Assembly (NCBI GenBank): GCA_017642935.1
Contig: JAEPOK010000001.1
Span: forward strand, 806,001 to 870,000
Reading direction: 5' to 3'
Length of the DNA: 64,000 nt
Source of the DNA: Hyphomicrobiales bacterium
GTDB lineage: Bacteria; Pseudomonadota; Alphaproteobacteria; Rhizobiales; MH13
Shown here piece after piece: positions 17,323-50,274 of this stretch (positions are counted from its first letter, which is position 1; each line of letters opens with the position of its first letter). The notes under the pieces were generated by a model. The model did not search any database, was not told where the DNA came from, and worked only from the letters and a program-made list of their open reading frames with translations. A program made the translations under genes and the position numbers.

Positions 17323-17461
17323 GCTCGATCGACCTGACTGATATGGCAATCTCTACCTGTGATGGAACAAGGATCAGTTTGCAGGTCCCTTGACAGATCG
17401 CGTGTGGTGCGAGCCAATTGGCGTGGGCCGACGATAGTGTTTGTTTGAGCTGGGCTGCCTT

Positions 17462-18121
17462 ATGGCGAAAAAACCGATCTTCATTTCTCCCGACGCAGAG
17501 GACAACACTGGAGCCAATAAGGAAGGCAGCGATCCAGCGCCAACGCGGCTCTATCGCGACCCTGCCGAGACGACGCCACCCGACTTGCCGTCCCGTGTGG
17601 GCGATGCCACGCGCATTATTGCCTCAGAGCCGGCGAGCCCGGCTGGCGCAGGTGATCGGGTTGGTGATGCCACGCGTTTGGTTGAAACGGTTCCACCAGC
17701 ACCAGAGGTGACGCGTGTTTTGGCCGTAGAGCCCGCACCGGAAGCCAATGAACCCCTGGAATACGCCCAGCCTGCGAACCCAGTCGTTGGTTGGCTCGTT
17801 GTCGTCGATGGGCCGGGGCGTGGAAAAGACCTGTCTTTTGCCGTCGGCATGAACGCCATCGGTCGCGGTGGTGACAATGACGTGGTTGTCGATTTCGGCG
17901 ACGCCGAGATTGTGAGCAATGCACACGCCTACATCGTCTATGACGAAGAGGGGCGGTCTTATCATGCAACACATGCCGGGCAGAACAGCGTTGTGCGACT
18001 CAACGATGAACCCCTCCTGGAGGCCAAGGAAGTGCAAAGCGGCGACCAACTGCGTCTGGGAAGAACCACGTTGCGTTTGGTGACGCTGTGCGGTCCCGAT
18101 TTTGACTGGTCGGGCGACTGA
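17462..18121 (+). CDS. FHA domain protein with a Thr-Arg motif repeat linker
   Basis: The 219-residue protein starts at ATG 17462. Residues 1-105 are an acidic, proline-rich, probably disordered region with four Thr-Arg-hydrophobic motifs (Thr28, Thr50, Thr71, Thr84; two within repeated GDATR words). Residues about 110-210 form an FHA domain: GRGGDN 134-139, S152xxH155 and a QNSVVRLN loop in place of the usual S-x-N-G segment. FHA domains bind phosphothreonine. The gene heads a tight cluster with PP2C and other FHA genes (11-base gap), so it is probably a kinase substrate and adaptor in that circuit. Confidence 0.85.
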   Translation: MAKKPIFISPDAEDNTGANKEGSDPAPTRLYRDPAETTPPDLPSRVGDATRIIASEPASPAGAGDRVGDATRLVETVPPAPEVTRVLAVEPAPEANEPLEYAQPANPVVGWLVVVDGPGRGKDLSFAVGMNAIGRGGDNDVVVDFGDAEIVSNAHAYIVYDEEGRSYHATHAGQNSVVRLNDEPLLEAKEVQSGDQLRLGRTTLRLVTLCGPDFDWSGD

Positions 18122-18132
18122 GCACCGCGACC

Positions 18133-19206
18133 GTGACGGCCATCCCCACCGAGTTCGACGTTGCCAGCGCCATTTGGAAGGGCATGCGCCCCTACCAAGA
18201 GGACAGTCTGTCGACTGATTTTCATGCCGGTTCACCGAACGGCTTTGCCATTGTCGCCGATGGTATGGGTGGTCACGCAGCCGGTGATGTGGCGTCGAAC
18301 TTGGCGACCATTCACGGGTCCGGCGAACTGAAACTTGCCATGCAGCAGCTTGAAGGCAAGGCCGATGGCCTGCCCGAGGCATTGGGTGCTGCCATTGAAA
18401 AGGCCAATGGCGCGATTGCCGAGCGGGTTGGCGCTGACAGCCGGGTTGCCGGTATGGGCACCACTCTGTTGGCGCTCGCAATCAACGAGAACAAACTGTT
18501 TTGGGGCTCAGTTGGCGACAGCCCTTTGTATTTGGTCCGCGACGGCACCCTACGTCAGTTGAACCAGGACCACTCGATGGCACCGGTGATTGCCGCCATG
18601 GTGGAACGCGGCGAGATCACGCCTGATCAGGCCAAGCAGCACCCGGATCGCAATGCGCTGACGTCTGTTTTGATGGGCGAGCGGATCGAGAAACAAGACG
18701 TGCCGGAAACAGCGTTTGAGGTCATGCCGAAAGATGTGCTGATCGCAGCAAGTGACGGTCTGCAATTCCTGCCCGAAGAGCGAGTTTTGGAGCTGGTGAC
18801 GGCCGCGCTGCCGGCGTCCAGTTCAACGCTTTGCGATAAACTGATGGGCGCATTGAAGGAACTCGACGATCCGCACCAGGATAATTGCGCGATCGTAGTC
18901 GTTCAGATGCGCGCTGAAGCGGCAGAGGAGGCTGATGTTGTTGCAGATGAACCTGCTCCACCGGCTCGCGCCGACATTTCCCAAACGCGGATCGTGCCCG
19001 ATCAGCCAGACGCCGAAGCTCAGTCCGATGATGCCGTCCCACTGGTGCAGGATGCACACGAAACAGTGACGGAAGAACCACCGCAACCGGCGCCTGAACG
19101 CAAAGCGCCGTCAGAGTCCGCTGGCAGTTCGGTGATGAATTCCGGCGTCCTATTTTTGGTTGTCGGTCTTGCCGCCGTAGCGGCAGTCGCCTTGCTTCTT
19201 CGCTAA
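18133..19206 (+). CDS. PP2C-family Ser/Thr phosphatase with C-terminal membrane anchor
   Basis: The 357-residue protein begins at GTG 18133. The PP2C catalytic domain (residues about 8-255) has Asp24 in YQEDS, VADGMGGHAAGD with Asp43, GTTLLAL, SVGDSPLYL, S207-D208-G209 and D250-N251, so all metal-binding acids are present and the enzyme should be active. A proline- and acid-rich linker (260-330) includes Thr285-Arg-Ile-Val-Pro. The chain ends in one hydrophobic helix (about 333-356), predicting a tail-anchored inner-membrane phosphatase facing the cytoplasm. It would oppose the kinase encoded at 23599-25314. Confidence 0.93.
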   Translation: MTAIPTEFDVASAIWKGMRPYQEDSLSTDFHAGSPNGFAIVADGMGGHAAGDVASNLATIHGSGELKLAMQQLEGKADGLPEALGAAIEKANGAIAERVGADSRVAGMGTTLLALAINENKLFWGSVGDSPLYLVRDGTLRQLNQDHSMAPVIAAMVERGEITPDQAKQHPDRNALTSVLMGERIEKQDVPETAFEVMPKDVLIAASDGLQFLPEERVLELVTAALPASSSTLCDKLMGALKELDDPHQDNCAIVVVQMRAEAAEEADVVADEPAPPARADISQTRIVPDQPDAEAQSDDAVPLVQDAHETVTEEPPQPAPERKAPSESAGSSVMNSGVLFLVVGLAAVAAVALLLR

Positions 19207-19290: not shown

Positions 19291-20166
19291 ATGGGCAAGG
19301 CGCAAATATCGATATGGCAGGCCGCTTCCGGCGCGGTTTTGCTTTCCGCCTTGGAAATGCGATTGCCGGTTGTTCTCGGCCGACATGGGCCGAGCGACGC
19401 AGGCCGGCTGACCGATGCCGACGGCAAGGAAGTGTTGTTTGGCGCCGGGCTTGCAACACTATCGCGACATCACATGGACATCACCGTTTCTGACACCGGC
19501 GGCGCCTGCGTCATTGACCGCTCGAGCAACGGCGTTCAGCGCAAGATGCCTGGCGAACCCAACAGCCTGCTCGGTAAAGACGGCGTGGACAAATTACCGG
19601 TGGGCAGCCAGCGGCAATATGAGACGGTTGGGTTGGTCATCGAGATCAATCTGCCACATGCCTCGCGGCCATTGGAAGCCGGCGCCACCGGCGAGAAGAT
19701 CTATGCCGTCTATGACAGCGCCAGCGCCGGTCGACCCAAGGCGATTGATCTGACGGACGGTTATCTCTGTCTTATTCGCGATGCCAGTTCCGTGCGTATG
19801 GAACGACAGCCAGGGGCGTCGGCGGCAGAGGTTTTGCAGGGCGTGAAGGAAGCCCGCCAAGTCTGTCTGGCTGTGATCGGCGGCGATGATGACGGGCGGA
19901 CCATCGTCATACCGGGGCAAAACAGAAGCGTGATCTGCAACCGCCGATCGCTGCCGGAAAACACGCCCTTTGCCTTGGCGCACATGGACACGCTTGAAGT
20001 AGGCGGGATGGATTTGCGCATCATGGAGGAGGGCGGCGAGCAGCCGATTGTGTGCGTCAATCCCGATTGCCGGCAGATGAACGCCTACGAGGTCGGCGGC
20101 AACTGCCGCTATTGCGGCACCCGCCTCGGCGATGGCCGCACCCAGAAATTGCCGCTCGGAGCCTGA
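19291..20166 (+). CDS. Degenerate FHA-like protein with C-terminal zinc ribbon
   Basis: The 291-residue protein has an FHA-like N-terminal part: GRHG at 30-33, S58RHH61 and DRSSNGV at 76-82, close to the canonical GR, SRxH and S-x-N-G motifs. The middle (about 130-245) is unrecognised and may be a second FHA-like fold. The end carries four cysteines, 255, 260, 272 and 275 (CX4C-X11-CX2C), a zinc ribbon. The last residues, T284-Q-K-L-P, match the motif repeated in the other proteins of the cluster. It ends two bases before the next FHA gene. A scaffold or sensor role is inferred. Confidence 0.75.
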   Translation: MGKAQISIWQAASGAVLLSALEMRLPVVLGRHGPSDAGRLTDADGKEVLFGAGLATLSRHHMDITVSDTGGACVIDRSSNGVQRKMPGEPNSLLGKDGVDKLPVGSQRQYETVGLVIEINLPHASRPLEAGATGEKIYAVYDSASAGRPKAIDLTDGYLCLIRDASSVRMERQPGASAAEVLQGVKEARQVCLAVIGGDDDGRTIVIPGQNRSVICNRRSLPENTPFALAHMDTLEVGGMDLRIMEEGGEQPIVCVNPDCRQMNAYEVGGNCRYCGTRLGDGRTQKLPLGA

Positions 20167-20168
20167 CG

Positions 20169-22166
20169 ATGCTGACCTATCCCATTTTCTTTCAGGTCCA
20201 ACAAATCTCCGATCTCGGTCAGCCGATCGGCGAGGCCAGAACGCTCAAATGCGAAAGCCCAGGCGAGTTCACGGTCGGCAAGTCGAAAGACTGCGATGTC
20301 CAGTTGGATGGAGCATCGGTTTCGCGCCAGCATCTGGTTCTCATCCTTGGTGAAGATGATGTGCGCGTGCGCGATGAGGACAGCACCAATGGAACGTTCC
20401 TGAACGGAACGCGCGTCGCCGATGCCGACGTGGTTCCTGGCGATCAGATTGAACTGCCGGGATGGCATCTCATTTTGATGGGAGCCGAAAGCGCCCAGGC
20501 TGACCAGACGCCGAAGAGCGATGCCGTTGTTTTGAGCCGGCTGATCACCGGTGATTCAGGCGAGGTGGCCGTCCCGCCGCCAATCGATCCTTACACAGAG
20601 CTTTTTGGCGGCAAGGATGAGGTCGATGTCGAGGCGTTGGCCGCAAGCGGGTTTCCGATCAGCGAGGTGAAATTCTGCGCCGTTGGCGGCGGTCTTGGAT
20701 CGTTTGTTTGGGTCGATCATCTGCGCTGCTACGGCGTTCCAACCGACGACATCGCCGTCGTTGGCACCGAACGCAAATGCTATGAGACCTACAAGCGGTA
20801 CTGCAAAAACAGCCAGATCCCCGACCATGAACGGTTGCGTTCGAACTCGCTCTCGCGACCGGACAATATCTGGGGATTCCCAGGTTACGCCTTGCGTGAG
20901 GTGTTCAAGGGGCAAGCGTCCGGCATCAAGGGCGTTTTCAAGGTCTTCGGTGAGCCGGCGCTTGCTGAAAGCTACACACCGCGCGCCGGCGATGTCTTCG
21001 ACTCCCTGGATCGTGAAGCCAAACGCATCCAATGGGACGCGATGTATCGGCAAGGCCAGGTTCGCCGACTAAGAAAAACCAGCGATGGACGCTATTGCGT
21101 TGCCTATCAGCCTCGCGGTGAGGCGGCGGATGCCGGGCGTCCCAAGATGGCGCTGATCATCGCCGATGTCGTGCATCTGTCGACTGGTTATCCCGCGACG
21201 CGGTTTGTCGATGATTTCCAGGAATTTGTTGCCAACCACCCGGACAAGCGGCCTTTGGTTGCCAACGCCTATGAACCCCACGATCAGATCTACCGCACGA
21301 TCGAACAACGCCAGGAGCCAATTTTCGTTGTTGTGCGTGGGCGCGGTATTGTCGCCAGCCGTATCCTGCAGCGGCTCAGCGAGGCGCGTGCCAAGAACCC
21401 ACAAATCAAGATCATCCAATCCATGCGAAGCGCTCTGGGCGCACGTGACGGCGCGACTTATGGTCGGGCCAAGCGTGCGGTGATCAACAATGTTGAAATT
21501 CAGCCGTTCAATTGGCCGAAAGCGGCCTGGGGCGGCGATCTTCGGTTCGAGTATGAGAAAGCCGACGAGGCGCGCCGTGGTGAGATTCTCTCAACGCTGG
21601 GCGGAACATCCACGGCGCTGCGCTCTGATTGGGTGGCAATCGCCGAGCGCGGCACCGAAGAAGACTGGTATCGCGTTGTCTTTGGATCGATCAAAGAGCT
21701 TGATCCGGTGGAAGGCGCCGAAGACCGGATCCGGGTGTTGATCGAAACACCGGAAAAGCATCGCGAAGAACTCTTCGCTCACTACCTGATCGATTGCACC
21801 GGCTTAATCGCCGACATTCGCCGCTCGCCTTTCATGGCCGATCTTCTCGATACCTACGATCTGCCACGTAATCACGCCTATTCCGTACGTGGCGGTAAGG
21901 CTGAAAAGCGCGGACCGACAGGTTTGCAAGTCACCAATGATTTTGAGATCGGCGGATTGAAAAACGGCAAGGGCAGGGCCTATGCGGCTGGCACGATCAC
22001 CACGGGCGGCCCCTATCTTGCGGTCGATAGTTTTCTAGGCCTGCAATATTCCGCGCTGCGATCAGTCGACCACCTAGTCACTGAGAAGACGCACAAAGTC
22101 CGCGATCTGACACCTCTGCGCTCGATGACCCAATGGCTCAAATGGGCCGTCGGTAGCGCACCTTAG
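20169..22166 (+). CDS. FHA domain fused to a flavoprotein-like oxidoreductase domain
   Basis: From ATG 20169 the product is 665 residues; the frame is open upstream, but that part is another frame of the preceding gene. Residues 1-105 form a full FHA domain (G37, S52-R-x-H55, S72TNGT76). After a linker, residues about 165-665 look like a two-nucleotide-fold oxidoreductase: G173GGLGS178 in a strand-turn-helix, a second VVVRGRG fold near 387-393, D542CTG545, and a C-terminal ITTGGPYLAVDSFLGLQYSA segment like the FAD-closing region of N-hydroxylating or HI0933-like flavoproteins. A redox enzyme controlled by phosphothreonine binding is inferred. Catalytic identity is unknown. Confidence 0.7.
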   Translation: MLTYPIFFQVQQISDLGQPIGEARTLKCESPGEFTVGKSKDCDVQLDGASVSRQHLVLILGEDDVRVRDEDSTNGTFLNGTRVADADVVPGDQIELPGWHLILMGAESAQADQTPKSDAVVLSRLITGDSGEVAVPPPIDPYTELFGGKDEVDVEALAASGFPISEVKFCAVGGGLGSFVWVDHLRCYGVPTDDIAVVGTERKCYETYKRYCKNSQIPDHERLRSNSLSRPDNIWGFPGYALREVFKGQASGIKGVFKVFGEPALAESYTPRAGDVFDSLDREAKRIQWDAMYRQGQVRRLRKTSDGRYCVAYQPRGEAADAGRPKMALIIADVVHLSTGYPATRFVDDFQEFVANHPDKRPLVANAYEPHDQIYRTIEQRQEPIFVVVRGRGIVASRILQRLSEARAKNPQIKIIQSMRSALGARDGATYGRAKRAVINNVEIQPFNWPKAAWGGDLRFEYEKADEARRGEILSTLGGTSTALRSDWVAIAERGTEEDWYRVVFGSIKELDPVEGAEDRIRVLIETPEKHREELFAHYLIDCTGLIADIRRSPFMADLLDTYDLPRNHAYSVRGGKAEKRGPTGLQVTNDFEIGGLKNGKGRAYAAGTITTGGPYLAVDSFLGLQYSALRSVDHLVTEKTHKVRDLTPLRSMTQWLKWAVGSAP

Positions 22167-22179
22167 GGAGGCCAAGAGC

Positions 22180-22638
22180 ATGATTCCCACACTTGCTGGC
22201 CGCATTCAGACCCGGCTTTTTCTGTTTGTTTTTCTTGGACTTCCAATCACCGCGCTTTTTGCCTACGCGCACAATGGCTGGGCCTGGGACTGGGGTCAGG
22301 CGCAGATCTTCTTCTTGTTTCTGACCACGCTTCTTGGCGTCGGGCTGATCCTGGACTCGGTCTACATCTTCATCCAATCAGTGCGTTGGGACCGCGATTG
22401 GCCGTTCGCTTTTCAGTTCTTCTTTTCCATCATCGAGTTCGGCATCGTCGTCGGCCTGATGTTCAGCGATCTGATCCCTTGGCTGCCGATGGCGGGTGGA
22501 AAGGGGGCGATAGAGCTGCAGACTGTCACACTGCACTTTGCGAGCGTGTTCATCCCGTCTTTCCTGGCCCTTTTGGGTCCCCTGTCGGTGTTTTTCATCC
22601 GGTGGCGGTTCAAGGCCGGTCAGTTCGGGAAGCTCTAG
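22180..22638 (+). CDS. Four-helix integral membrane protein of unknown function
   Basis: The 152-residue protein has four strongly hydrophobic segments (about 13-30, 42-65, 78-98 and 118-140) separated by short polar loops with few charges. Start ATG 22180 follows GGGAGGCCAAGAGC. It is 13 bases after the FHA-oxidoreductase gene and 3 bases before the TSUP gene, so it is almost certainly co-transcribed with both. No family is recognised. It could be a membrane partner of the oxidoreductase or the exporter. Confidence 0.75.
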   Translation: MIPTLAGRIQTRLFLFVFLGLPITALFAYAHNGWAWDWGQAQIFFLFLTTLLGVGLILDSVYIFIQSVRWDRDWPFAFQFFFSIIEFGIVVGLMFSDLIPWLPMAGGKGAIELQTVTLHFASVFIPSFLALLGPLSVFFIRWRFKAGQFGKL

Positions 22639-22641
22639 GTC

Positions 22642-23580
22642 GTGAGCCGACTGGTCAAAACCTGGATACCCATTCACCTGGCGCTACTGGCGGCCGCCTA
22701 CGCGCTGTTGTTTTGGCAGTCCTCTCTCACCCTTGATGTCCTGCTCGGCCTTTGGTTCTTCGTGCCTGTCGGCGTGATGGGTGCGATCATCGCCAATGCG
22801 ACCGGTACGGGTGGCGGCGTGGTGTTTGTGCCAGTCTTTGCTGCGTTGCAAGACGGCGGCATTATGGTGCCAGACGCGCTGCTCAGCCTGTTGCCGCAAA
22901 ACGCCAATGAGGGCGTCGCCGTTTCTTTCACCATCCAATGCTTTGGCATGTCGATAGGGGCGTTGACTTGGGCCCATGCCATCTTCGTCAAAGACAGTCT
23001 GGCGTGGGATGAAAAGATTGCGCCGCACACGCTGCTTGCGCTGGCCGCAACACCACTGGCGACTGGCATTCCAGCACTTCTTCTCACCCAGGCCTTCATT
23101 GAGATCGATGGCGCTCAATTGATTGTTTGGTTTAAGTTTTTCTCGCTGGCACTGGGCATAATTCTACTGATTTTCACCTGGGTACAGCGCCATCAATCCG
23201 CTTTAGAACGTAAGCTGACCATCGGACCGGGCGAGCTGTGGGTATTGCTCCTGCTCGGTGCATTGGGCGGGGCGGTCACGGCCTTATTCTCGGTCGGCAT
23301 TGGCGAGTTTTTGGCGATCTATCTCATCCTGCGGCGCTTTCCGACAAAGGTTGCGATTGCGGTGGCCGTTTGGGTCTCGGTGATTTGCGTGTTCACCGGC
23401 TTTTGGGACAATTATTTTGCTGGTCTGGTTCGCCTGGAGATTGCACTGATTGCTGTGCCTGGTGCCATTCTCGGCGGCTTCCTCGCCAAGGGCATTGCTT
23501 CGCTGCTTGGATCGCTGTGGCTGAAAACGGCGGCATCCATATGGATTATCGCGTCAAGCGTCTACCTGCTCGTGACGTAG
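22642..23580 (+). CDS. TSUP (TauE/SafE) family anion exporter
   Basis: The 312-residue protein starts at GTG 22642 and has about eight membrane segments. It has the duplicated TSUP pattern of glycine-rich helices: GAIIANATGTGGGVVFVPVF in the first half and LGALGGAVTALFSVGIGEFLAIYLIL in the second. Characterised TauE/SafE members move sulfite, sulfoacetate or related organosulfur anions. Co-transcription with FHA and PP2C genes is unusual. The two sulfatases a few kilobases away make a sulfur-oxyanion role tempting, but that is inference. Confidence 0.87.
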   Translation: MSRLVKTWIPIHLALLAAAYALLFWQSSLTLDVLLGLWFFVPVGVMGAIIANATGTGGGVVFVPVFAALQDGGIMVPDALLSLLPQNANEGVAVSFTIQCFGMSIGALTWAHAIFVKDSLAWDEKIAPHTLLALAATPLATGIPALLLTQAFIEIDGAQLIVWFKFFSLALGIILLIFTWVQRHQSALERKLTIGPGELWVLLLLGALGGAVTALFSVGIGEFLAIYLILRRFPTKVAIAVAVWVSVICVFTGFWDNYFAGLVRLEIALIAVPGAILGGFLAKGIASLLGSLWLKTAASIWIIASSVYLLVT

Positions 23581-23598: not shown

Positions 23599-25314
23599 TC
23601 AAATTCCCTGGAGCTCAAGAGTCGCTTCACAGGTTACGCCCTGGTCAAAGGTGCCTAGCCAAACATCCAACCGTCCGCCTTCGGTGCCATTGAAGGCCTC
23701 GATGTTGGGGATCATCAAGCGTGGTTGCAGCTGGCCGTTGGAGTCATCATCAAAATACCAAATCGTTGTCGGCGTGTTGACGAGCAGCGTGGTGTCGCAG
23801 CTTGCGGTCACCGAAAACTGCAGCCAGCCCGTTTCCGTTGACATCTCCGAGAGGAGCAGCGAAATGCTCGGCGCTTCGGAAACATAGCCGCGACCGGTCG
23901 TGTTGGGACAACTGGCGAGTGGCGCGCCGCCCCCAGCGTTGAGGCGATAGGTTGGTCTATTGGTTTGCAGAAAATTGCCGGTGAGCCCAACCGTGCGGGC
24001 AGCTCTGGCATCGAAGTCCGGGCACCCGACCGGCACTGCGCCACTGCCGTTGCCGGCGGCAGCTAGGTCAGCCAGCGCCTGATCGCGCTCCTGTTCGACC
24101 CTCGACACGTCACTGCGTGTTGCATCGAGATCGGTCTGCAGGGCCTCCACCGATTGGGTGAGCTCAGTGATTGTACCGTTTGCGGTATCCAATTGGTTCT
24201 GCAGAGCGCTGGCGTCGTCCGCGCTCATGCCACCAGCGGTTAAGGCGATGTAGGCTCCGGCGGCGACAGCTATGCCGCCACCGCCAGCCAGAACGCCACG
24301 CAGAAACTTGCCGGAACTGTCAGGGGAAGTCGATGACGCAGCTACTGGAGCGCTTGTTGCAAGCTCGGGCGGCAAAGCCCGCGTGACGGCGGCATCGAGC
24401 TTTTCTAGCCAGGTTTTGGCCGATTGTGGCCGCTCTTTCTGGGAAATCGCCAGCGAACGATCGATGAGCGAGAGAAGCACTTGGTTATGGTCGGCAAACC
24501 GACCTGACAGCGCCTCATAAGGATCCGGCTCTGCTGTCGCAACGCTTTGGATGCGCACGTCGGCGGCGGGCGGCGCCTCGCTTGCGATGGCGTGATACAA
24601 GGTTGCCCCGAGCGAATAGAGATCGCTGGCCGGGCTTTGCTCGGCACCCGTCGTGTAGAACTCGCTGGGCGAATATCCATCGGAGACAACGCGAAACGTC
24701 CCCATCTTGCGTGTTTCGGCGCGGATTTGCTGCCGGGCGGCGCCAAAATCGATCAGGATCGGTCGATCAAATCTGTCGATGCGAATATTGGACGGCTTGA
24801 TGTCGCGGTGCAGTAGCCCGCTCTCATGCAGATAGGCGAGGGCATCCAGAATGCTCCGCGCCATTTCTACGACGGCGGCTGGCGTCAAGCTCTCGGCATC
24901 GGAGTTGATGACGGTCTGCAGATCATGGCCGTGGATGAAGTCCATCGCCATGTAGGCGGTGCCGTTTTCTTCAAACAGGGTTTGAACATGCACCACATTG
25001 GGATGGGAAAGGCCGGCGAGGAGCCGCGCTTCGCGCAAAAACAGATTGCGTGCTGTGCTAAATGAGGCCGCAGTCGACTCGCTGGCGGCACTAACCGAGC
25101 GGCTGGACGAGCGCGCCACAAGGCCAAGCGGGAAGCACTCTTTGAGCGCGACATCGCGATCGAGATTGTCCTTGGCTAGATAGGTTATCCCAAAACCGCC
25201 GGCGGCGATGTTGCGAATGATCTTGTATTGTCCGCCATTTAGCTCAGCCCCGACCGGTAACTCGCCCGGCGGGCCATCCGGCAAGGGACGCGTCAGTTGA
25301 TCGTCGTCTGCCAT
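23599..25314 (-). CDS. Transmembrane eukaryote-like Ser/Thr protein kinase
   Basis: The 571-residue protein has a kinase domain at about 28-300: glycine loop AAGGFG (37-42), Lys58 in VALKE, H169RDIKPSN176 and D189FG191, so it should be active. Thr8-Arg and Thr311-Arg motifs flank the domain. A glycine-rich membrane helix lies at about 338-361, then a predicted coiled coil (368-420) and a cysteine-containing periplasmic domain (about 430-571) of unrecognised fold. The gene is convergent with the TSUP gene (18 bases apart) and lies at the edge of the FHA/PP2C cluster, so it is the likely kinase of that circuit, sensing a periplasmic cue. Confidence 0.92.
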   Translation of the reverse strand: MADDDQLTRPLPDGPPGELPVGAELNGGQYKIIRNIAAGGFGITYLAKDNLDRDVALKECFPLGLVARSSSRSVSAASESTAASFSTARNLFLREARLLAGLSHPNVVHVQTLFEENGTAYMAMDFIHGHDLQTVINSDAESLTPAAVVEMARSILDALAYLHESGLLHRDIKPSNIRIDRFDRPILIDFGAARQQIRAETRKMGTFRVVSDGYSPSEFYTTGAEQSPASDLYSLGATLYHAIASEAPPAADVRIQSVATAEPDPYEALSGRFADHNQVLLSLIDRSLAISQKERPQSAKTWLEKLDAAVTRALPPELATSAPVAASSTSPDSSGKFLRGVLAGGGGIAVAAGAYIALTAGGMSADDASALQNQLDTANGTITELTQSVEALQTDLDATRSDVSRVEQERDQALADLAAAGNGSGAVPVGCPDFDARAARTVGLTGNFLQTNRPTYRLNAGGGAPLASCPNTTGRGYVSEAPSISLLLSEMSTETGWLQFSVTASCDTTLLVNTPTTIWYFDDDSNGQLQPRLMIPNIEAFNGTEGGRLDVWLGTFDQGVTCEATLELQGI

Positions 25315-36967: not shown

Positions 36968-39900
36968 ATGGCGACTATCGACGTGGCAAATACCTCAACG
37001 ACTTCTGATCTTTCCCGCAAAATGAATACGGTACCGGTGACGAGCTTCTCTGTTCGCTCGCGCCCGCGGCGCATGTTTGGCAACATTCGCGAAGTTGCCG
37101 ATATGCCCAATCTCATCGAAGTGCAGATGGCTTCCTACAATCAGTTCCTAATGGTGGATGAGCCCGAAGGCGGCCGCAACGATGATGAAGGCCTGCAGTC
37201 GGTTTTCAAATCGGTGTTCCCGATTTCTGATTTTGCCGGCACGGCGATGCTGCAGTTCGTGCGCTACGAATTCGAACCGCCGAAATACGATGTGGATGAG
37301 TGCCGCCAGCGCGGGATGACATTCTCTGCGCCGCTGAAAGTGAATCTTCAGCTGATCGTGTTCGATGTCGATGAAGAAACCGGCGCCAAATCGGTCAAAG
37401 ATATCAAAGAGCAAGACGTCTATATGGGCGATATGCCGCTGATGACGACGAACGGTACGTTCATCGTCAACGGCACCGAGCGTGTGATCGTTTCTCAGAT
37501 GCACCGTTCGCCAGGCGTGTTCTTCGATCATGACAAGGGCAAGAGCCACTCGTCCGGCAAGCTGCTGTTCGCGGCCCGCATCATCCCTTATCGCGGCTCC
37601 TGGCTCGACATTGAGTTCGATGCCAAGGACATCGTGCACGCACGTATCGACCGTCGCCGGAAAATTCCAGTGTCATCGCTGCTCTATGCACTGGGTCTCG
37701 ATACCGAGGAAATTCTGAGCACCTATTACACGTCCTCGGTGCACACCAAGACCAAGAATGGTTGGAAGACGGCCTACGATCCGGCGAAGATGGAGGGCAT
37801 GAAGGTCACCCGTGACCTGATCAACGATGCCACCGGTGAGGTTGCTGTTGAGTCCGGCAAGAAGGTCACCCCGCGTCAGGCCAAGCGCGTGGCGGACGAA
37901 GGTTTGAAAAACCTGCGGGTCGAAGCTGAAGACATGATCAGCCAGTATCTGGCTGAAGACGTCGTCAACATGGAAACCGGCGAAATCTACGCTGAAGCCG
38001 GCGAGGAAATCACCGAAGAGCTGATGGAACAGCTGCTTGAGCTTGGCTTCAAGTCGCTCACTCTGCTCGACATCGACCATGTGAACACCGGCGCCTATAT
38101 CCGCAACACGCTGATGGCTGACAAGAACGAAAGCCAAGCTGAAGCGCTGTTCGATATCTACCGCGTGATGCGTCCCGGTGAGCCGCCGACCATTGAAGCG
38201 GCTGAGGCGATGTTCCAGTCGCTGTTCTTCGATCCGGAGCGCTATGACCTGTCGGCTGTTGGGCGCGTGAAAATGAATATGCGCCTTGACCTCGACGCCG
38301 AGGACACGGTGCGCACGCTGCGCAAGGAAGACATTTTGGAAGTTCTGCGCACGCTGCTCGATCTGCGTGACGGCAAGGGCGAAATCGACGATATCGACAA
38401 TCTCGGCAACCGCCGTGTGAGGTCGGTCGGCGAGCTGATGGAAAACCAGTATCGCGTCGGTCTACTGCGGATGGAGCGCGCCATCAAGGAGCGCATGTCG
38501 TCGGTCGAAATCGGCACGGTGATGCCGCAGGATCTGATCAACGCCAAACCTGCGTCTGCCGCTGTGCGCGAGTTCTTTGGTTCCTCGCAGCTCTCGCAGT
38601 TCATGGACCAGACAAACCCGCTGTCGGAAATCACCCATAAGCGCCGTCTTTCGGCGCTTGGACCGGGTGGTCTGACGCGTGAACGCGCAGGCTTTGAGGT
38701 GCGCGACGTGCACCCGACACATTATGGTCGTATCTGCCCGATTGAAACGCCGGAAGGCCCGAATATCGGTCTGATCAACTCGCTGGCAACGTTCGCTCGT
38801 GTGAACAAATACGGCTTCATCGAAACGCCGTATCGCAAGGTGAACGACGGCAATGTGACCGACGATGTCGTGTTCCTGTCGGCGATGGAAGAGGCGCGCC
38901 ACTACATCGCGCAGGCCAACTCGGAACTTGATGATGATGGTAACTTCATCAACGAGTTGGTCGTCTGCCGTCACCAATCGGATGTGATGCTCACCCCGCG
39001 CGAGCGCGTTGATCTGATGGACGTTTCGCCGAAGCAGCTCGTTTCGGTCGCTGCCTCGCTGATTCCGTTCCTTGAGAACGATGACGCCAACCGCGCGCTA
39101 ATGGGCTCGAACATGCAGCGTCAGGCTGTGCCGTTGGTGCGCGCTGAAGCACCGCTGGTCGGTACCGGCATGGAGCGGATCGTGGCGCAGGATTCTGGCG
39201 CTGCCATTGGTGCACGCCGCACTGGTATCGTGGAACAGGTGGACGCGACGCGTATCGTGATCCGTGCCACCGAAGACCTCGATCCAGGTCGTCCGGGCGT
39301 TGATATCTACCGCTTGATGAAGTTCCAGCGGTCGAACCAGAACACCTGCATCAACCAGCGTCCGCTTGTGACGATTGGTGATGAGGTGAAGAAGGGCGAG
39401 ATCATCGCTGACGGTCCGTCGACCGAGATGGGTGAGCTGGCGCTCGGCAAAAACGTGCTCGTCGCGTTCATGCCGTGGAACGGTTACAACTTCGAGGATT
39501 CCATTCTGATGTCGGAGCGCATCGTGAAAGACGATGTGTTCACCTCCATCCACCTTGAAGAGTTCGAGGTGATGGCGCGCGACACCAAGTTGGGCCCTGA
39601 AGAGATTACTCGCGATATTCCGAACGTGTCGGAAGAGGCGCTGAAGAACCTTGATGAGGCCGGCATGGTCTATATCGGGGCTGAGGTCGAAGCTGGCGAC
39701 ATTCTTGTCGGCAAGATCACGCCGAAGGGCGAAAGCCCGATGACGCCGGAAGAAAAGCTTCTGCGCGCCATCTTCGGTGAAAAAGCCTCCGATGTGCGCG
39801 ACACGTCTTTGCGTGTGCCACCAGGTGTGAAGGGGACCATTGTTGAGGTCCGCGTCTTCAACCGTCACGGCATCGATAAGGATGAGCGCGCGATCGCCAT

Positions 39901-41179
39901 CGAGCGTGAGGAAATCGAACGCCTCGGCAAAGACCGCGATGACGAGCAGGCGATCCTCGATCGCAACGTCTACGGTCGCCTCGCCGACATGCTGTCCGGT
40001 AAGGACGGCATTGCCGGACCGAAGGGTTACAAGAAAGGCACGAAGATCACGACTGACGTGCTCAACGAGTACCCGCGGTCGCAGTGGTGGACGTTCGCGC
40101 TCGACGACGACACGCTGATGGGTGAGATCGAAGCGCTGCGCGCGCAGTACGATGAATCCAAGGAACAGCTGGAACAGCGGTTCATGGACAAGGTCGAAAA
40201 ACTGCAGCGTGGTGATGAGCTTCCCCCAGGTGTGATGAAGATGGTCAAAGTCTTCATCGCCGTGAAGCGCAAGATCCAGCCGGGCGATAAAATGGCCGGC
40301 CGCCACGGCAACAAAGGCGTGGTGTCAAAGATCGTGCCGCAGGAAGACATGCCCTTCCTCGATGACGGAACGCCGGTCGATGTGGTGTTGAACCCGCTCG
40401 GTGTGCCATCGCGTATGAACGTGGGACAGATCCTGGAAACCCATATGGGTTGGGCCTGTTCCGGTCTTGGCAAGTCGATCCAGAAGGCGGTCGATGCTTA
40501 CAAGGCTGAGGCCAATGTGGCGCAGCTGGAAGAGCGGATCAGCACGATCTATGGCGATGCCGTTGAGGTCGACAAGCTTTCGGAAGGCGAGATTGTCGGT
40601 CTTGGCAAGCAGCTTTCCAAGGGTGTGCCGATTGGTACGCCGGTCTTTGATGGTGCCCGTGAGCCGGATGTGGCCGAGATGCTGGAAAAGGCAGGTCTCG
40701 ATCGTTCCGGTCAGGTGACCCTCTATGATGGCCGCACTGGCGATCAGTTCGACCGCAAGGTGACGGTTGGGTACAAATATGTGCTCAAGCTGCATCACTT
40801 GGTGGACGATAAGATCCACGCCCGTTCGATCGGACCGTACTCGCTTGTTACCCAGCAGCCGCTGGGCGGTAAGGCGCAGTTCGGTGGTCAGCGCTTCGGT
40901 GAGATGGAAGTGTGGGCGCTTGAGGCGTATGGCGCGGCCTACACGCTTCAGGAGATGCTCACCGTCAAGTCCGATGACGTGGCCGGTCGTACCAAGGTGT
41001 ACGAGGCGATTGTCCGCGGCGAGGACGCGTTTGAAGCTGGCATTCCCGAAAGCTTCAATGTGCTCGTCAAAGAGATGCGGTCTCTTGGCCTCAATGTGGA
41101 GTTGGCGCAGAGCGAGGAAGACGAAGATGATGAGGGCATCATCGACGTTGAAATCCCAACGCAGGACGCTGCCGAGTAA
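36968..41179 (+). CDS. rpoB: DNA-directed RNA polymerase subunit beta
   Basis: The 1403-residue protein starts at ATG 36968 after AAAAGGAGCGGAC. Diagnostic segments are the rifampicin-pocket [11 protein letters not shown] from residue 538, [19 protein letters not shown], and [19 protein letters not shown] near the active site. Positions equivalent to E. coli Asp516, His526 and Ser531 are Asp547, His557 and Ser562, so no classical rifampicin-resistance change is present. It is about 60 residues longer than E. coli RpoB, as is common in alphaproteobacteria. Confidence 0.98.
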
Positions 41180-41191
41180 CGAACAAAGATA

Positions 41192-41226
41192 CCAAGGGGC
41201 AGGGCGCTTTGCGTCCCGTCCCTTGG
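41192..41226 (+). other. Hairpin in the rpoB-rpoC spacer
   Basis: CCAAGGG (41192-41198) pairs with CCCTTGG (41220-41226), and inside it GGGCGC pairs with GCG-T-CCC around a TTT loop, giving a long interrupted stem. The rpoB-rpoC gap is 129 bases, long for this junction. No T-run follows, so it is more likely a processing or stability element than a terminator. Confidence 0.45.
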
Positions 41227-41308
41227 AGCGCGTGAACGATTGAATTGCCCGGGTCTGACGACAAGCCGATAGCGCAAGGCTTGAAGTAGACCCCTTAGGA
41301 GACACGCT

Positions 41309-45517
<4,209 letters not shown>

Positions 45518-45544
45518 GTCGAAGTCTTCTCCAACAAGAATCAA

Positions 45545-45580
45545 GGCCGCTGGAATCAGGTGTGATTCCAGCGGCCTTTT
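45545..45580 (+). terminator. Intrinsic terminator of the rpoBC operon
   Basis: A perfect 13-base stem GGCCGCTGGAATC/GATTCCAGCGGCC with a six-base loop is followed immediately by TTTT. It lies 28 bases after the rpoC stop and is a textbook Rho-independent terminator. Confidence 0.93.
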
Positions 45581-46053
45581 ACCCTCTAGGGTGCCCATTG
45601 ATGCGACGAACTTTTGTTGCGTCTCAGCCGTCGCAAACGCACAGTTTGCAAAGGGTGGATGAGGGCGGAACACGAAGGCTGGCCTTATGATTGCCGCAGC
45701 GGGCGTTTCTGGCCGGAAATTGCCGCAGGGGGCTTGACCAACACCCCTCTGCATCGTATCTCCCGCTCACTTTTGCGGCAGGCCGTGGTTCGCAAAGCCG
45801 ATTAGCTTGTGCCAATTCGCAAGTGGGCTTCGTACCAAACGCTGCTTTGACTGGCTGCAAATTGAAGCATGTCACGATCCGGAGTTCGCTCCTGGTCCTC
45901 TGATTGCAAAGCGCCCGGGGGTTTCCCCAAGGGGCGCTTTGTTTGTTGTCGTTAAGGTACGCGTCTTTTGGCTTTGACCTGGGCGCAATCGATGAGGCGA
46001 AAAGCTGTTGGCCAATTGGGCCAGCGCGTTCGACCAAAAAGGAAGAGGCTTAG
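45581..46053. other. Intergenic region between rpoC terminator and rpsL
   Basis: This 473-base spacer has several open frames on both strands, none with convincing composition or a ribosome-binding site. It should contain the promoter of the rpsL-rpsG-fusA-tuf operon. A candidate is TTGACC 45734-45739 with TATCTC 45757-45762 (17-base spacer); a second, weaker one starts at TTGACT 45847. A terminator-like hairpin at 45907-45941 lies between these candidates and rpsL. No tRNA was found. Confidence 0.45.
45907..45945 (+). terminator. Terminator-like hairpin upstream of rpsL (possible leader attenuator)
   Basis: CAAAGCGCCC (45907-45916) pairs with GGGCGCTTTG (45932-45941), enclosing GGGG-GTTT-CCCC, and T-rich sequence follows (TTTGTTGTCGTT). 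No gene ends nearby, since rpoC has its own terminator 330 bases upstream. It could end a short transcript begun in this spacer, or act as an attenuator for the rpsL operon. Confidence 0.65.
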
Positions 46054-46425
46054 ATGCCAACAATTAATCAGCTGATCCGCAAGCCGCGCCAGGCTCCGGT
46101 CAAGCGTAACAAAGTTCCGGCTCTGGAGCAGAACCCGCAAAAGCGCGGCGTTTGCACCCGTGTCTACACCACCACCCCGAAGAAGCCGAACTCGGCCCTT
46201 CGTAAGGTTGCCAAGGTGCGCCTTGTGAATGGCTTTGAAGTGATCGGTTACATCCCGGGCGTCGGCCACAACCTGCAGGAGCACTCGGTTGTGATGCTTC
46301 GCGGTGGCCGCGTGAAGGATTTGCCGGGCGTGCGTTATCACATTCTGCGCGGTGTTCTGGATACCCAGGGCGTTAAAGACCGTAAGCAGCGTCGTTCCAA
46401 ATACGGCGCCAAGCGTCCTAAGTAA
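46054..46425 (+). CDS. rpsL: 30S ribosomal protein S12
   Basis: The 123-residue protein has [11 protein letters not shown] (Lys43) and [13 protein letters not shown] (Lys88), both wild type at positions where changes give streptomycin resistance. S12 controls decoding accuracy. ATG 46054 follows AGGAAGAGGCTTAG. Confidence 0.98.
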
Positions 46426-46437
46426 GGGTAAGAAGCG

Positions 46438-46908
46438 ATGTCACGTCGTCACGCAGCCGAAAAGCGCGTCGTCAACCCTGATCCCAAGTTCGGTGATCTG
46501 GTTGTCTCCAAATTCATGAACGCCATCATGATTGATGGCAAAAAATCTGCCGCTGAGCGCATTGTTTATGGTGCCTTCGACACCATCGAAACACGCACCG
46601 GTCAGAACCCGTTGGAAGTGTTCCATCAGGCTCTGGGCAACGTGTCTCCATCGGTTGAGGTTCGTTCACGCCGTGTTGGTGGTGCAACCTACCAGGTGCC
46701 GGTTGAAGTGCGCACCGAGCGTCGCCAGGCACTGGCCATCCGTTGGCTGATCGCCGCCGCACGTGGACGCAATGAAAACACCATGGTCGATCGCCTGTCG
46801 GGTGAAATGCTGGACGCTTCCAGCAACCGCGGCACCGCCGTGAAAAAGCGCGAAGACACGCACCGGATGGCCGATGCCAACCGCGCGTTCTCGCACTATC
46901 GCTGGTAA
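46438..46908 (+). CDS. rpsG: 30S ribosomal protein S7
   Basis: The 156-residue protein matches bacterial S7: [40 protein letters not shown], and the [17 protein letters not shown] end. S7 nucleates assembly of the 30S head and contacts E-site tRNA. It is 12 bases after rpsL. Confidence 0.98.
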
Positions 46909-46944
46909 TTTTGAACCGTTTGGTTCGCTAAGGAGCATCCCCCC

Positions 46945-49035
46945 ATGGCACGCGACTACGTCATTGAGGACTATCGCAATTTCGGCATCATGGCTCACAT
47001 TGATGCTGGCAAGACGACGACGACCGAGCGCATCCTGTATTACACAGGCAAGTCGCACAAAATCGGCGAAGTGCATGATGGCGCTGCCACCATGGACTGG
47101 ATGGAACAGGAACAAGAGCGCGGCATCACGATCACGTCCGCTGCGACCACCACGTTCTGGGAAGGCCGTGACGGCAAGAAGCGTCGCTTCAACATCATTG
47201 ATACGCCAGGCCACGTTGACTTCACCATTGAAGTTGAGCGTTCGCTGCGCGTGCTCGATGGCGCGATTGCACTCCTGGACGCCAATGCCGGCGTCGAACC
47301 GCAGACCGAAACCGTGTGGCGCCAGGCTGACAAGTACCACGTGCCGCGTATGATCTTCGTCAACAAGATGGACAAGATCGGTGCTGATTTCTATCGCTCC
47401 GTCGAGATGATCGAAGAGCGCCTGGGCGCAACACCTGCCGTCGTTCAACTGCCGATCGGTTCCGAGAACGAGTTCGCCGGTGTCGTTGATCTCATCGAGA
47501 TGAAGGCGTTGGTTTGGAAGTCTGAAAACCTTGGCGCTGAGTGGGATGTCGTTGACATCCCGGCTGATTTGCAAGAGCGCGCCGAAGAGTTCCGCGAGAA
47601 ACTCATCGAGACCGTCGTGGAAGTCGATGATGAAGCCATGGACGCCTATCTTGAAGGCACCATGCCGGACAACGACACCATTCGTCGCTTGATCCGCAAG
47701 GGTACGTGTAACGTTGATTTCTTCCCTGTGTTCTGTGGCTCTGCTTTTAAGAACAAGGGCGTCCAGCCGCTGCTCGATGCTGTGGTTGATTATTTGCCTA
47801 GCCCGGTCGACATCCCCGCCATCAAAGGTATCGATGTGAAGACCGAAGCTGAGGCGGACCGCAAAGCATCTGATGATGAGCCGCTTTCGCTTCTGGCGTT
47901 CAAGATCATGAACGACCCGTTTGTTGGCTCGCTAACCTTCTGCCGCATCTATTCGGGCGTGCTGGAGCAGGGTTCGACGCTGCTGAACTCGGTGAAAGAC
48001 AGGAAAGAGCGTGTTGGCCGTATGATGCTGATGCACTCCAACAGCCGTGAAGACATCAAGATCGCCTATGCGGGCGACATTGTTGCCATCGCTGGCCTGA
48101 AGGAAACAACAACGGGTGACACGCTGTGTGATCCGCAAAGCGCTGTTATTCTTGAGCGTATGGAATTCCCTGAGCCGGTCATCGAGATCGCAATCGAGCC
48201 TAAAACCAAGGCTGATCAGGAGAAGATGTCCATCGCTCTTAACCGTCTGGCGGCTGAAGATCCTTCTTTCCGCGTGAAGGTCGACCATGAATCAGGTCAG
48301 ACCATCATTGCCGGTATGGGCGAGTTGCACCTCGACATTCTGGTTGATCGCATGAAGCGTGAGTTCAAGGTTGAGGCCAATATCGGCCAGCCGCAGGTGG
48401 CCTATCGCGAAACCATCACCAAGACCGCTGATGTGGACTACACCCACAAGAAGCAGTCGGGTGGTTCGGGTCAGTTTGCCCGCGTGAAGATCACAATCGA
48501 GCCGGGCGAGGCCAATTCCGGTTACGTGTTCACCGACACAGTGGTCGGCGGCAATGTGCCCAAGGAATACATCCCAGGCGTTGAAAAGGGCATTGGCTCG
48601 GTCATGTCTTCGGGTCCGATTGCCGGCTTTCCTATGCTCGACATCACTGCCACGCTGACCGATGGCGCCTACCACGATGTGGACTCCTCGGTTCTTGCCT
48701 TTGAGATCGCTGGTCGTGCCGCGTTCCGCGAAGCTGTTCAAAAGGCTGGCCCAAAACTGCTTGAGCCGGTGATGAAGGTCGAGGTCGTAACCCCGGATGA
48801 GTATGCCGGATCGGTGATGGGCGATCTCAACTCTCGCCGTGGTCAGATCCAGGGCACCGAGACCCGTGGTGTTGCCACGGTGATCAACGCCTTCGTGCCG
48901 CTGGCCAACATGTTTGGCTATGTGTCAGCGCTGCGATCCTCCACGCAGGGCCGCGCGCAGTACACCATGCAGTTTGATCATTATGAGCAGGTTCCGCAAG
49001 CAATCGCGGAAGAAGTTAAGTCCAAATACGCTTAA
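46945..49035 (+). CDS. fusA: Elongation factor G
   Basis: The 696-residue translocase has GTPase motifs [17 protein letters not shown] and NKMD, followed by domains II-V, including the switch-adjacent [12 protein letters not shown] and the domain [16 protein letters not shown] loop. It drives tRNA-mRNA translocation on the ribosome. ATG 46945 follows AAGGAGCATCCCCCC. Confidence 0.98.
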
Positions 49036-49098
49036 CCCAAGCGTTCTTGCGACCCCCAAGATTAACACGACGTCAGTCGAGATTACGGAGAGCCTAAG

Positions 49099-50274
49099 AT
49101 GGCGAAAGAGAAGTTTGAGCGTAACAAGCCGCATGTGAATGTTGGCACGATTGGTCATGTTGACCATGGCAAGACGACGTTGACGGCGGCGATCACGAAG
49201 TATTTTGGCGATTTCAAAGCCTATGATGAGATCGATGGTGCGCCTGAAGAGCGCGCGCGCGGTATCACCATTTCGACCGCTCACGTTGAGTATGAGACGG
49301 ACAACCGTCACTACGCCCATGTCGACTGCCCAGGCCATGCTGACTATGTGAAGAACATGATCACCGGTGCTGCGCAGATGGATGGCGCGATCCTGGTGTG
49401 CTCGGCTGCCGATGGCCCGATGCCGCAGACCCGCGAGCACATTCTGCTGGCCCGTCAGGTCGGTGTGCCGGCGCTTGTCGTGTTCATGAACAAGGTTGAC
49501 CAGGTCGACGATGAAGAGCTGCTTGAGCTCGTCGAAATGGAAATCCGTGAGCTGCTCTCGTCCTACGACTTCCCGGGCGATGATATCCCCATCATTGCCG
49601 GTTCGGCTCTGGCCGCTCTGGAAGGCAAGACGCCTGAGATCGGTGAGACCAAGATCCGCGAACTGATGGAGCAGGTAGACAGCTACATCCCACAACCTGA
49701 GCGTCCGGTGGACCAGCCGTTCCTGATGCCGATCGAAGATGTGTTTTCGATCTCCGGCCGCGGTACGGTTGTGACCGGTCGTGTGGAGCGCGGTGTGGTG
49801 AATGTGGGCGACGAGATCGAAATCGTCGGCATCCGCGACACCCAGAAGACGACCTGCACGGGCGTTGAGATGTTCCGTAAGCTGCTTGATCGCGGTGAAG
49901 CGGGTGACAATATCGGTGCGCTGCTGCGCGGTGTCGGCCGTGAAGATGTTGAGCGTGGCCAGATCCTCTGCAAGCCGGGTTCGGTGACGCCGCACACCAA
50001 GTTTGTGGCTGAGGCTTACATCCTGACGAAGGAAGAGGGTGGCCGTCACACGCCGTTCTTCACCAACTACCGTCCGCAGTTCTACTTCCGCACGACCGAT
50101 GTGACCGGCATCGTGACGCTGAAGGAAGGCACCGAGATGGTGATGCCGGGCGACAATGTTGAGATCAATGTTGATCTGATCGTGCCGATTGCGATGGAAG
50201 AGAAGCTGCGCTTCGCTATCCGCGAAGGCGGCCGCACCGTCGGCGCAGGCGTCGTCTCAAAAATCGTCGAGTAG
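49099..50274 (+). CDS. tuf: Elongation factor Tu
   Basis: The 391-residue GTPase has [17 protein letters not shown] and NKVD, plus domain II and III signatures such as [13 protein letters not shown] and [20 protein letters not shown]. It delivers aminoacyl-tRNA to the ribosome. Only this copy is in the window; many alphaproteobacteria have a second one near secE, which is absent here. Confidence 0.98.

Follow-up and report, generated by a model that had tools for sequence, protein, structure and literature searches.

The window, the whole 64,000-nucleotide stretch of DNA that was analysed, carries a compact cluster of signalling, membrane and enzyme genes around an open reading frame that joins an FHA domain to a predicted flavoenzyme:

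17441-18121, plus strand: FHA protein with a disordered-looking N-terminal tail holding four T-R-[ILV] motifs; the likely start is the ATG at 17462.
18133-19206, plus strand: PP2C Ser/Thr phosphatase.
19291-20166, plus strand: degenerate FHA protein (PF00498 E 0.0026, below the cut-off) with a C-terminal zinc-ribbon Cys pattern.
20169-22166, plus strand: gene of the FHA-flavoenzyme, 665 aa, with homologues of 35-55% identity in other phyla.
22180-22638, plus strand: uncharacterised four-helix membrane protein (4-TM protein), 152 aa, a conserved partner by gene adjacency and alignment.
22642-23580, plus strand: TauE/SafE-type permease (PF01925).
23599-25314, minus strand: Ser/Thr protein kinase.

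Elsewhere in the window, the block of rpoB, rpoC, EF-G and EF-Tu at 36968-50274 is an ordinary housekeeping region.

The frame at 20169-22166 is single and intact over 665 codons. Its parts are given below, where NMO stands for the flavin-dependent N-hydroxylating monooxygenases and residue numbers are those of the encoded protein:

20271-20456, plus strand: FHA domain, residues 35-96 (PF00498 and alignment).
20652-22112, plus strand: predicted NMO-like FAD/NADPH region with two dinucleotide domains, residues 162-648 (AF2 model, Foldseek, VIA, hhalign).
20685-20702, plus strand: putative FAD-binding GGGLGS (173-178), its three glycines invariant in 15 homologues.
20811-20891, plus strand: SQIP..RSNSxSxPDNIWGFPGYA (215-241), counterpart of an NMO segment, with Gln216 at the place of SidA Gln102 (merged alignment).
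21336-21359, plus strand: putative NAD(P)H-binding RGRGIVAS (390-397), from alignments.
21501-21536, plus strand: QPFNWPKAAWGG (445-456), counterpart of NMO SPFVNEIFNP by alignment, in a low-confidence loop of the model.
21792-21803, plus strand: DCTG, equivalent to the ATG motif of NMOs (alignments).
22005-22061, plus strand: GGPYLAVDSFLGLQYSALR, counterpart of NMO SHGLSDTLLSxxAxRA, with Gly624 replacing SidA Ser469 (alignments).

A complete FHA domain ahead of a region of about 500 residues had been proposed from the letters of the sequence, and this is borne out, with PF00498 matching residues 35-96 at 61.8 bits against a gathering cut-off of 20.7 (E 8e-17). FHA domains contact phosphothreonine through Arg, Ser and Asn residues. 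In the alignment, the contact positions Ser52, His55 and Asn73 are kept in the window protein, and the usual Arg is Lys38 here and Arg in most homologues. The region of about 500 residues that follows has no direct match among Pfam or NCBIfam models, and none to PDB sequences, even when searched as a profile.

The motifs from which this region had been read as a two-domain FAD/NAD(P) enzyme, namely GGGLGS (173-178), VVVRGRG (387-393), DCTG (542-545) and TTGGPY...GLQYSA, are all present and in the order claimed. They are not a product of chance, because motif residues (G173, G175, G177, R390, G391, G393, D542, T544, G545, D620, S621, G624 and L625) are invariant in 15 homologues. Altogether about 80 columns are invariant among these 15 members, including both dinucleotide turns, and they cover most of RSNSxSxPDNxWGxPGYA, QPFNWPKAAWGG and VDSFLGLQ, with slight deviation in the actinomycetes.

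Structure prediction offers a view of the fold itself. The AF2 model is of moderate confidence only (pLDDT 74.6, pTM 0.67), with the conserved loops 225-269 and 423-457 badly modelled, and displays Rossmann-type beta-alpha-beta units at 164-199 and 385-419. AF2, Foldseek and VIA agree on a dinucleotide fold, in which an NAD(P) Rossmann domain is inserted into an FAD Rossmann domain. Foldseek matches SidA, PvdA, KtzI, DesB and DfoA across residues 162-648 (best E 8e-17), with a TM-score on the target of ~0.6-0.7 for the NMOs. With VIA, YpdA reaches Z 22.9 (317 residues aligned, 3.6 A), DfoA Z 21.4 (386 aligned, 3.8 A), DesB Z 21.2 and PvdA Z 21.0, the last three with 383-386 residues aligned; since these values lie within ~2 units of each other, the fold class is clear and the nearest subfamily is not set by Z alone. 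The original prediction had suggested two comparisons, of which that with NMOs proved the right one, in Foldseek as in hhalign. HI0933-like proteins are not among the best 50 fold-search matches listed, an absence that does not in itself exclude them. Model and alignments thus support a FAD/NAD(P) flavoprotein fold with two dinucleotide-binding domains, for which cofactor binding is predicted.

The 4-TM gene lies directly downstream of the enzyme gene in 18 of 22 loci and a kinase gene no more than about 5.5 kb from it in 13 of the 22 (five Pfam-confirmed), both counts being minima because several of these loci stop at contig ends. In ten loci, spread across actinomycetes, Chloroflexota and a cyanobacterium, the 4-TM start overlaps the enzyme stop as NTGA; in the window, the two genes are separated by 13 bases. 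A separate FHA protein is encoded upstream in many of the FHA-bearing loci. Invariant residues of the 4-TM protein fall in P-x-L-x-G-R-x-Q-x-R, Y, W-x-x-D-W-P, E and W-R. Its AF2 model has a pLDDT of 87.8, and a search for PDB counterparts gave none by Foldseek and weak VIA matches, with Z at most 6.7. A DsbB or cytochrome b-type identity was rejected, as the protein has neither an invariant His or Cys pair nor a PDB fold match. At L086 593-1420, the 4-TM protein is extended by a Pro/Gln/Ala-rich tail of ~130 residues ending in a zinc-ribbon-like Cys motif, which suggests a cytoplasmic C-terminus. A TauE/SafE-type permease gene comes after the 4-TM gene in the window, in L040 (11276-12268) and in L041 (7396-8334), the last two being among three relatives from the same order, and this position hints at an exported product or a link to sulfur.

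Profile comparisons allow the enzyme family to be placed more closely. Against four genuine NMOs from related genomes, hhalign aligned 409 columns at E 6e-6 and, with a larger alignment, 260 columns at a score of 45 and E 6e-5; these E-values are those of single comparisons, and the hhalign probability of the NMO match is only 65-68%. As controls, YpdA scored 26.5 (E 0.018) and thioredoxin reductase (TrxR) 23.5, with a maximum of 22.7 in 15 column shuffles, which leaves TrxR at the shuffle level and YpdA slightly higher. The gathering score of PF13434 is not reached, the window protein giving no match and the best of 15 members E 0.038; likewise, TIGR04018 (YpdA) is absent from the NCBIfam matches of the window protein. 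An FHA-free Chloroflexota family (L088, L089, L091; ~425-480 aa) forms a bridge, matching the enzyme family in hhalign at E 2e-21 over 419 columns. Its members exceed the cut-offs of Pyr_redox_2 or Pyr_redox_3, and one barely exceeds that of Lys_Orn_oxgnase. The bridging family itself is nearer YpdA (hhalign score 99.7) than NMOs (66.6), which makes the flavoprotein superfamily secure and the NMO label a best estimate. No 4-TM protein, FHA domain or kinase was found near the bridging-family genes. Fold, controlled profile comparison and bridging family together uphold the two-domain FAD/NAD(P) assignment.

The proximity of the bridging family to YpdA also lends itself to the chief competing interpretation, in which an FHA-controlled flavoprotein reductase, YpdA or FNR-like, would draw electrons from NADPH and hand them to a quinone, a disulfide or the 4-TM protein. 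In VIA, YpdA, FNR and TrxR structures come near the NMOs (Z 18-23), and the enzyme is often paired with a membrane protein. In contrast, direct profile comparison prefers NMOs to YpdA and TrxR, no histidine or cysteine pair is invariant in the 4-TM protein, and the enzyme retains the NMO-type SQIP...PGYA and QPFNW segments and has no invariant cysteine in the 15-homologue alignment. The last two features speak against a reductase but stop short of excluding it, and we regard it as unlikely, with perhaps one chance in several.

Residue equivalences with SidA, taken from an alignment through homologue L047 and from the merged alignment, offer a greater level of detail on the probable chemistry. 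SidA Gln102 is a FAD/NADPH contact (PMC7359926) and Arg279 contacts the NADPH 2'-phosphate (PMC7347517); their counterparts Gln216 and Arg420 are invariant. The substrate residues of SidA are lost: Lys107, which contacts the substrate carboxylate and is essential (PMC7347517), corresponds to Glu221, and Ser469 to the invariant Gly624. Asn293 and Asn323 of SidA align near Asn448 and Ser/Thr481, in a region that is gapped and of low confidence. Given this pattern, the enzyme probably uses NADPH and is unlikely to act on ornithine or lysine. Hence the enzyme should not be classed as an ornithine/lysine hydroxylase, its substrate is probably other than free ornithine or lysine, and small-amine hydroxylation is not assured. 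SsDesB, a diamine hydroxylase, is also without Lys107, Asn293 and Ser469 (PMC10696468). A siderophore role was considered and rejected, a full-length PF13434 enzyme being absent from the window genome (the best match is partial, E 1.7e-5) and no siderophore genes having been noticed beside the module.

The replaced substrate-contact residues, together with the signalling gene neighbourhood, would also suit a non-catalytic redox or nucleotide sensor, whose flavin domain would sense NADPH or O2 and whose FHA domain would relay that state to the kinase. With many of them away from the cofactor sites, the ~80 invariant residues point instead to a catalytic pocket, and we consider a pure sensor improbable.

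Relatives of the enzyme region, at 35-55% identity, occur in three same-order genomes, cyanobacteria, Chloroflexota, one Rhodothermaceae bacterium and actinomycetes; the family is rare, yet present in five bacterial groups. Four clear matches were found among 101 relatives, the window genome counted (a fifth is marginal, E 4e-4). The window genome is the sole carrier among 385 genomes sampled from its class, and 400 sampled from the Chloroflexota phylum yielded three full-length members, including that of the genome at the sample centre. Fusion to the FHA domain is seen in every member outside the actinomycete branch apart from L042, which encodes the domain separately, directly upstream of the enzyme gene. 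A FastTree phylogeny with the bridging family as root places the FHA-less actinomycetes as the first branch (clade support 0.97), which leaves two histories for the domain, a single gain after this divergence or a loss in the actinomycetes. Two cyanobacterial enzyme genes (L018 7375-9469, L019 7932-9581) are split into several frames, and the adjoining L018 4-TM gene is intact.

The actinomycete members without FHA might be taken to mean that the fusion is incidental and the enzyme an ordinary housekeeping one. Against this stand the retention of the domain over most of the tree, its survival as a split-off upstream gene in L042, and a kinase gene adjoining the enzyme in two of the three actinomycete loci that have no fused FHA, which leave such an explanation very little room. 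An assembly or gene-fusion artefact can be dismissed, the identical fusion being present in independent genomes of several phyla. A phage or mobile-element origin was likewise set aside after no match among viral contigs or phages, as was a defence system, the enzyme having no PADLOC match and the kinase matching many generic PD-T4-6 kinase models.

The window genome concentrates its phospho-signalling genes at this locus. The 3.74 Mb assembly (98.8% complete) holds one PF00069 (Pkinase) match, one PF13672 (PP2C_2) match and three FHA matches; all of them but one FHA domain lie within this 8 kb cluster. Related genomes encode homologues of the degenerate FHA protein next to the flavoenzyme. 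The motif T-R-[IVL]-[IVL] occurs 8 times in the accompanying FHA and PP2C proteins from the window (17462-18121, 18133-19206) and from the same-order relatives L039-L041, where composition shuffles lead one to expect 0.39, and 0 of 5000 shuffles reach 8; as the motif was noticed before testing and some copies look duplicated, this count is a lead rather than proof. These repeats, located in unstructured-looking FHA and PP2C tails, are a candidate phosphorylation or FHA-docking motif. The conserved module of 4-TM protein, FHA proteins, PP2C and Ser/Thr kinase makes phospho-control far more plausible than the fusion alone would.

Our preferred reading, to which we assign a probability of roughly 0.55, is that of a phospho-recruited, membrane-anchored, flavin- and NADPH-dependent monooxygenase with a fold of the N-hydroxylating type. 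It builds directly on the FHA domain, the modelled FAD/NAD(P) fold, the kept cofactor-contact residues, the gene partners and the stop/start overlap; beyond these, we infer FAD and NADPH occupancy, monooxygenase chemistry, a complex with the 4-TM protein and phospho-dependence. The neighbouring kinase would phosphorylate threonine residues, perhaps those of the T-R-[ILV] motifs in the FHA and PP2C tails of the cluster, and the FHA domain of the enzyme would dock on phosphothreonine, so that the enzyme is recruited to, or released from, a membrane complex anchored by the co-encoded 4-TM protein. NADPH would reduce FAD, and the C4a-hydroperoxyflavin formed with O2 would oxygenate an amine (or sulfur) substrate, with the PP2C phosphatase resetting the switch. 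More tentatively, the locus as a whole may be a so far undescribed phospho-regulated membrane oxidation system, in which a closed kinase/phosphatase/FHA circuit has as its dedicated output the FHA-fused flavin monooxygenase, which would be bound to the novel 4-TM protein and oxidise a membrane-delivered or protein substrate.

If the monooxygenase reading holds, flavin-dependent oxidation would be switched in cis by phosphothreonine binding. The only detected kinase-domain protein and PP2C_2 phosphatase of the genome appear dedicated to the flavoenzyme, and having one of each allows the output of such a bacterial kinase to be tested without redundancy. The locus also adds a flavoenzyme family, unannotated and spread over five bacterial groups, and offers a first way into a conserved 4-TM family that has no known fold match.

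Among known enzymes, the NMOs (SidA, PvdA, KtzI, DesB; PF13434) resemble the window family in the order of FAD, NADPH and substrate domains, in the Gln102/Arg279 counterparts and in motifs that match end to end. Unlike them, the family falls below the Pfam model at ~12% identity, has lost Lys107 and Ser469, and has an added FHA domain, a 4-TM partner of its own and no siderophore context that was noticed. With the bacillithiol disulfide reductase YpdA it has the core two-dinucleotide fold in common (Z 22.9), whereas YpdA is far shorter (~320 residues) and a weak profile match, and the window family has no invariant Cys. FHA domains in cis with effectors are already known, as in the PDB proteins Rv1747 (an ABC transporter) and FHA-GGDEF, the effector there not being a flavoenzyme. 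In the open-licence literature searched, no description of an FHA-flavoenzyme fusion was found, nor of an NMO-like flavoenzyme that bears a fused FHA domain and has this set of partners. FHA control of an oxidative enzyme is known in trans: the regulators OdhI and GarA, with PknG, are separate proteins that act on 2-oxoglutarate dehydrogenase (PMC9769921). Both systems pair FHA and a Ser/Thr kinase with an oxidative enzyme, the control being a proposed one in our case, and here enzyme and FHA domain form a single protein.
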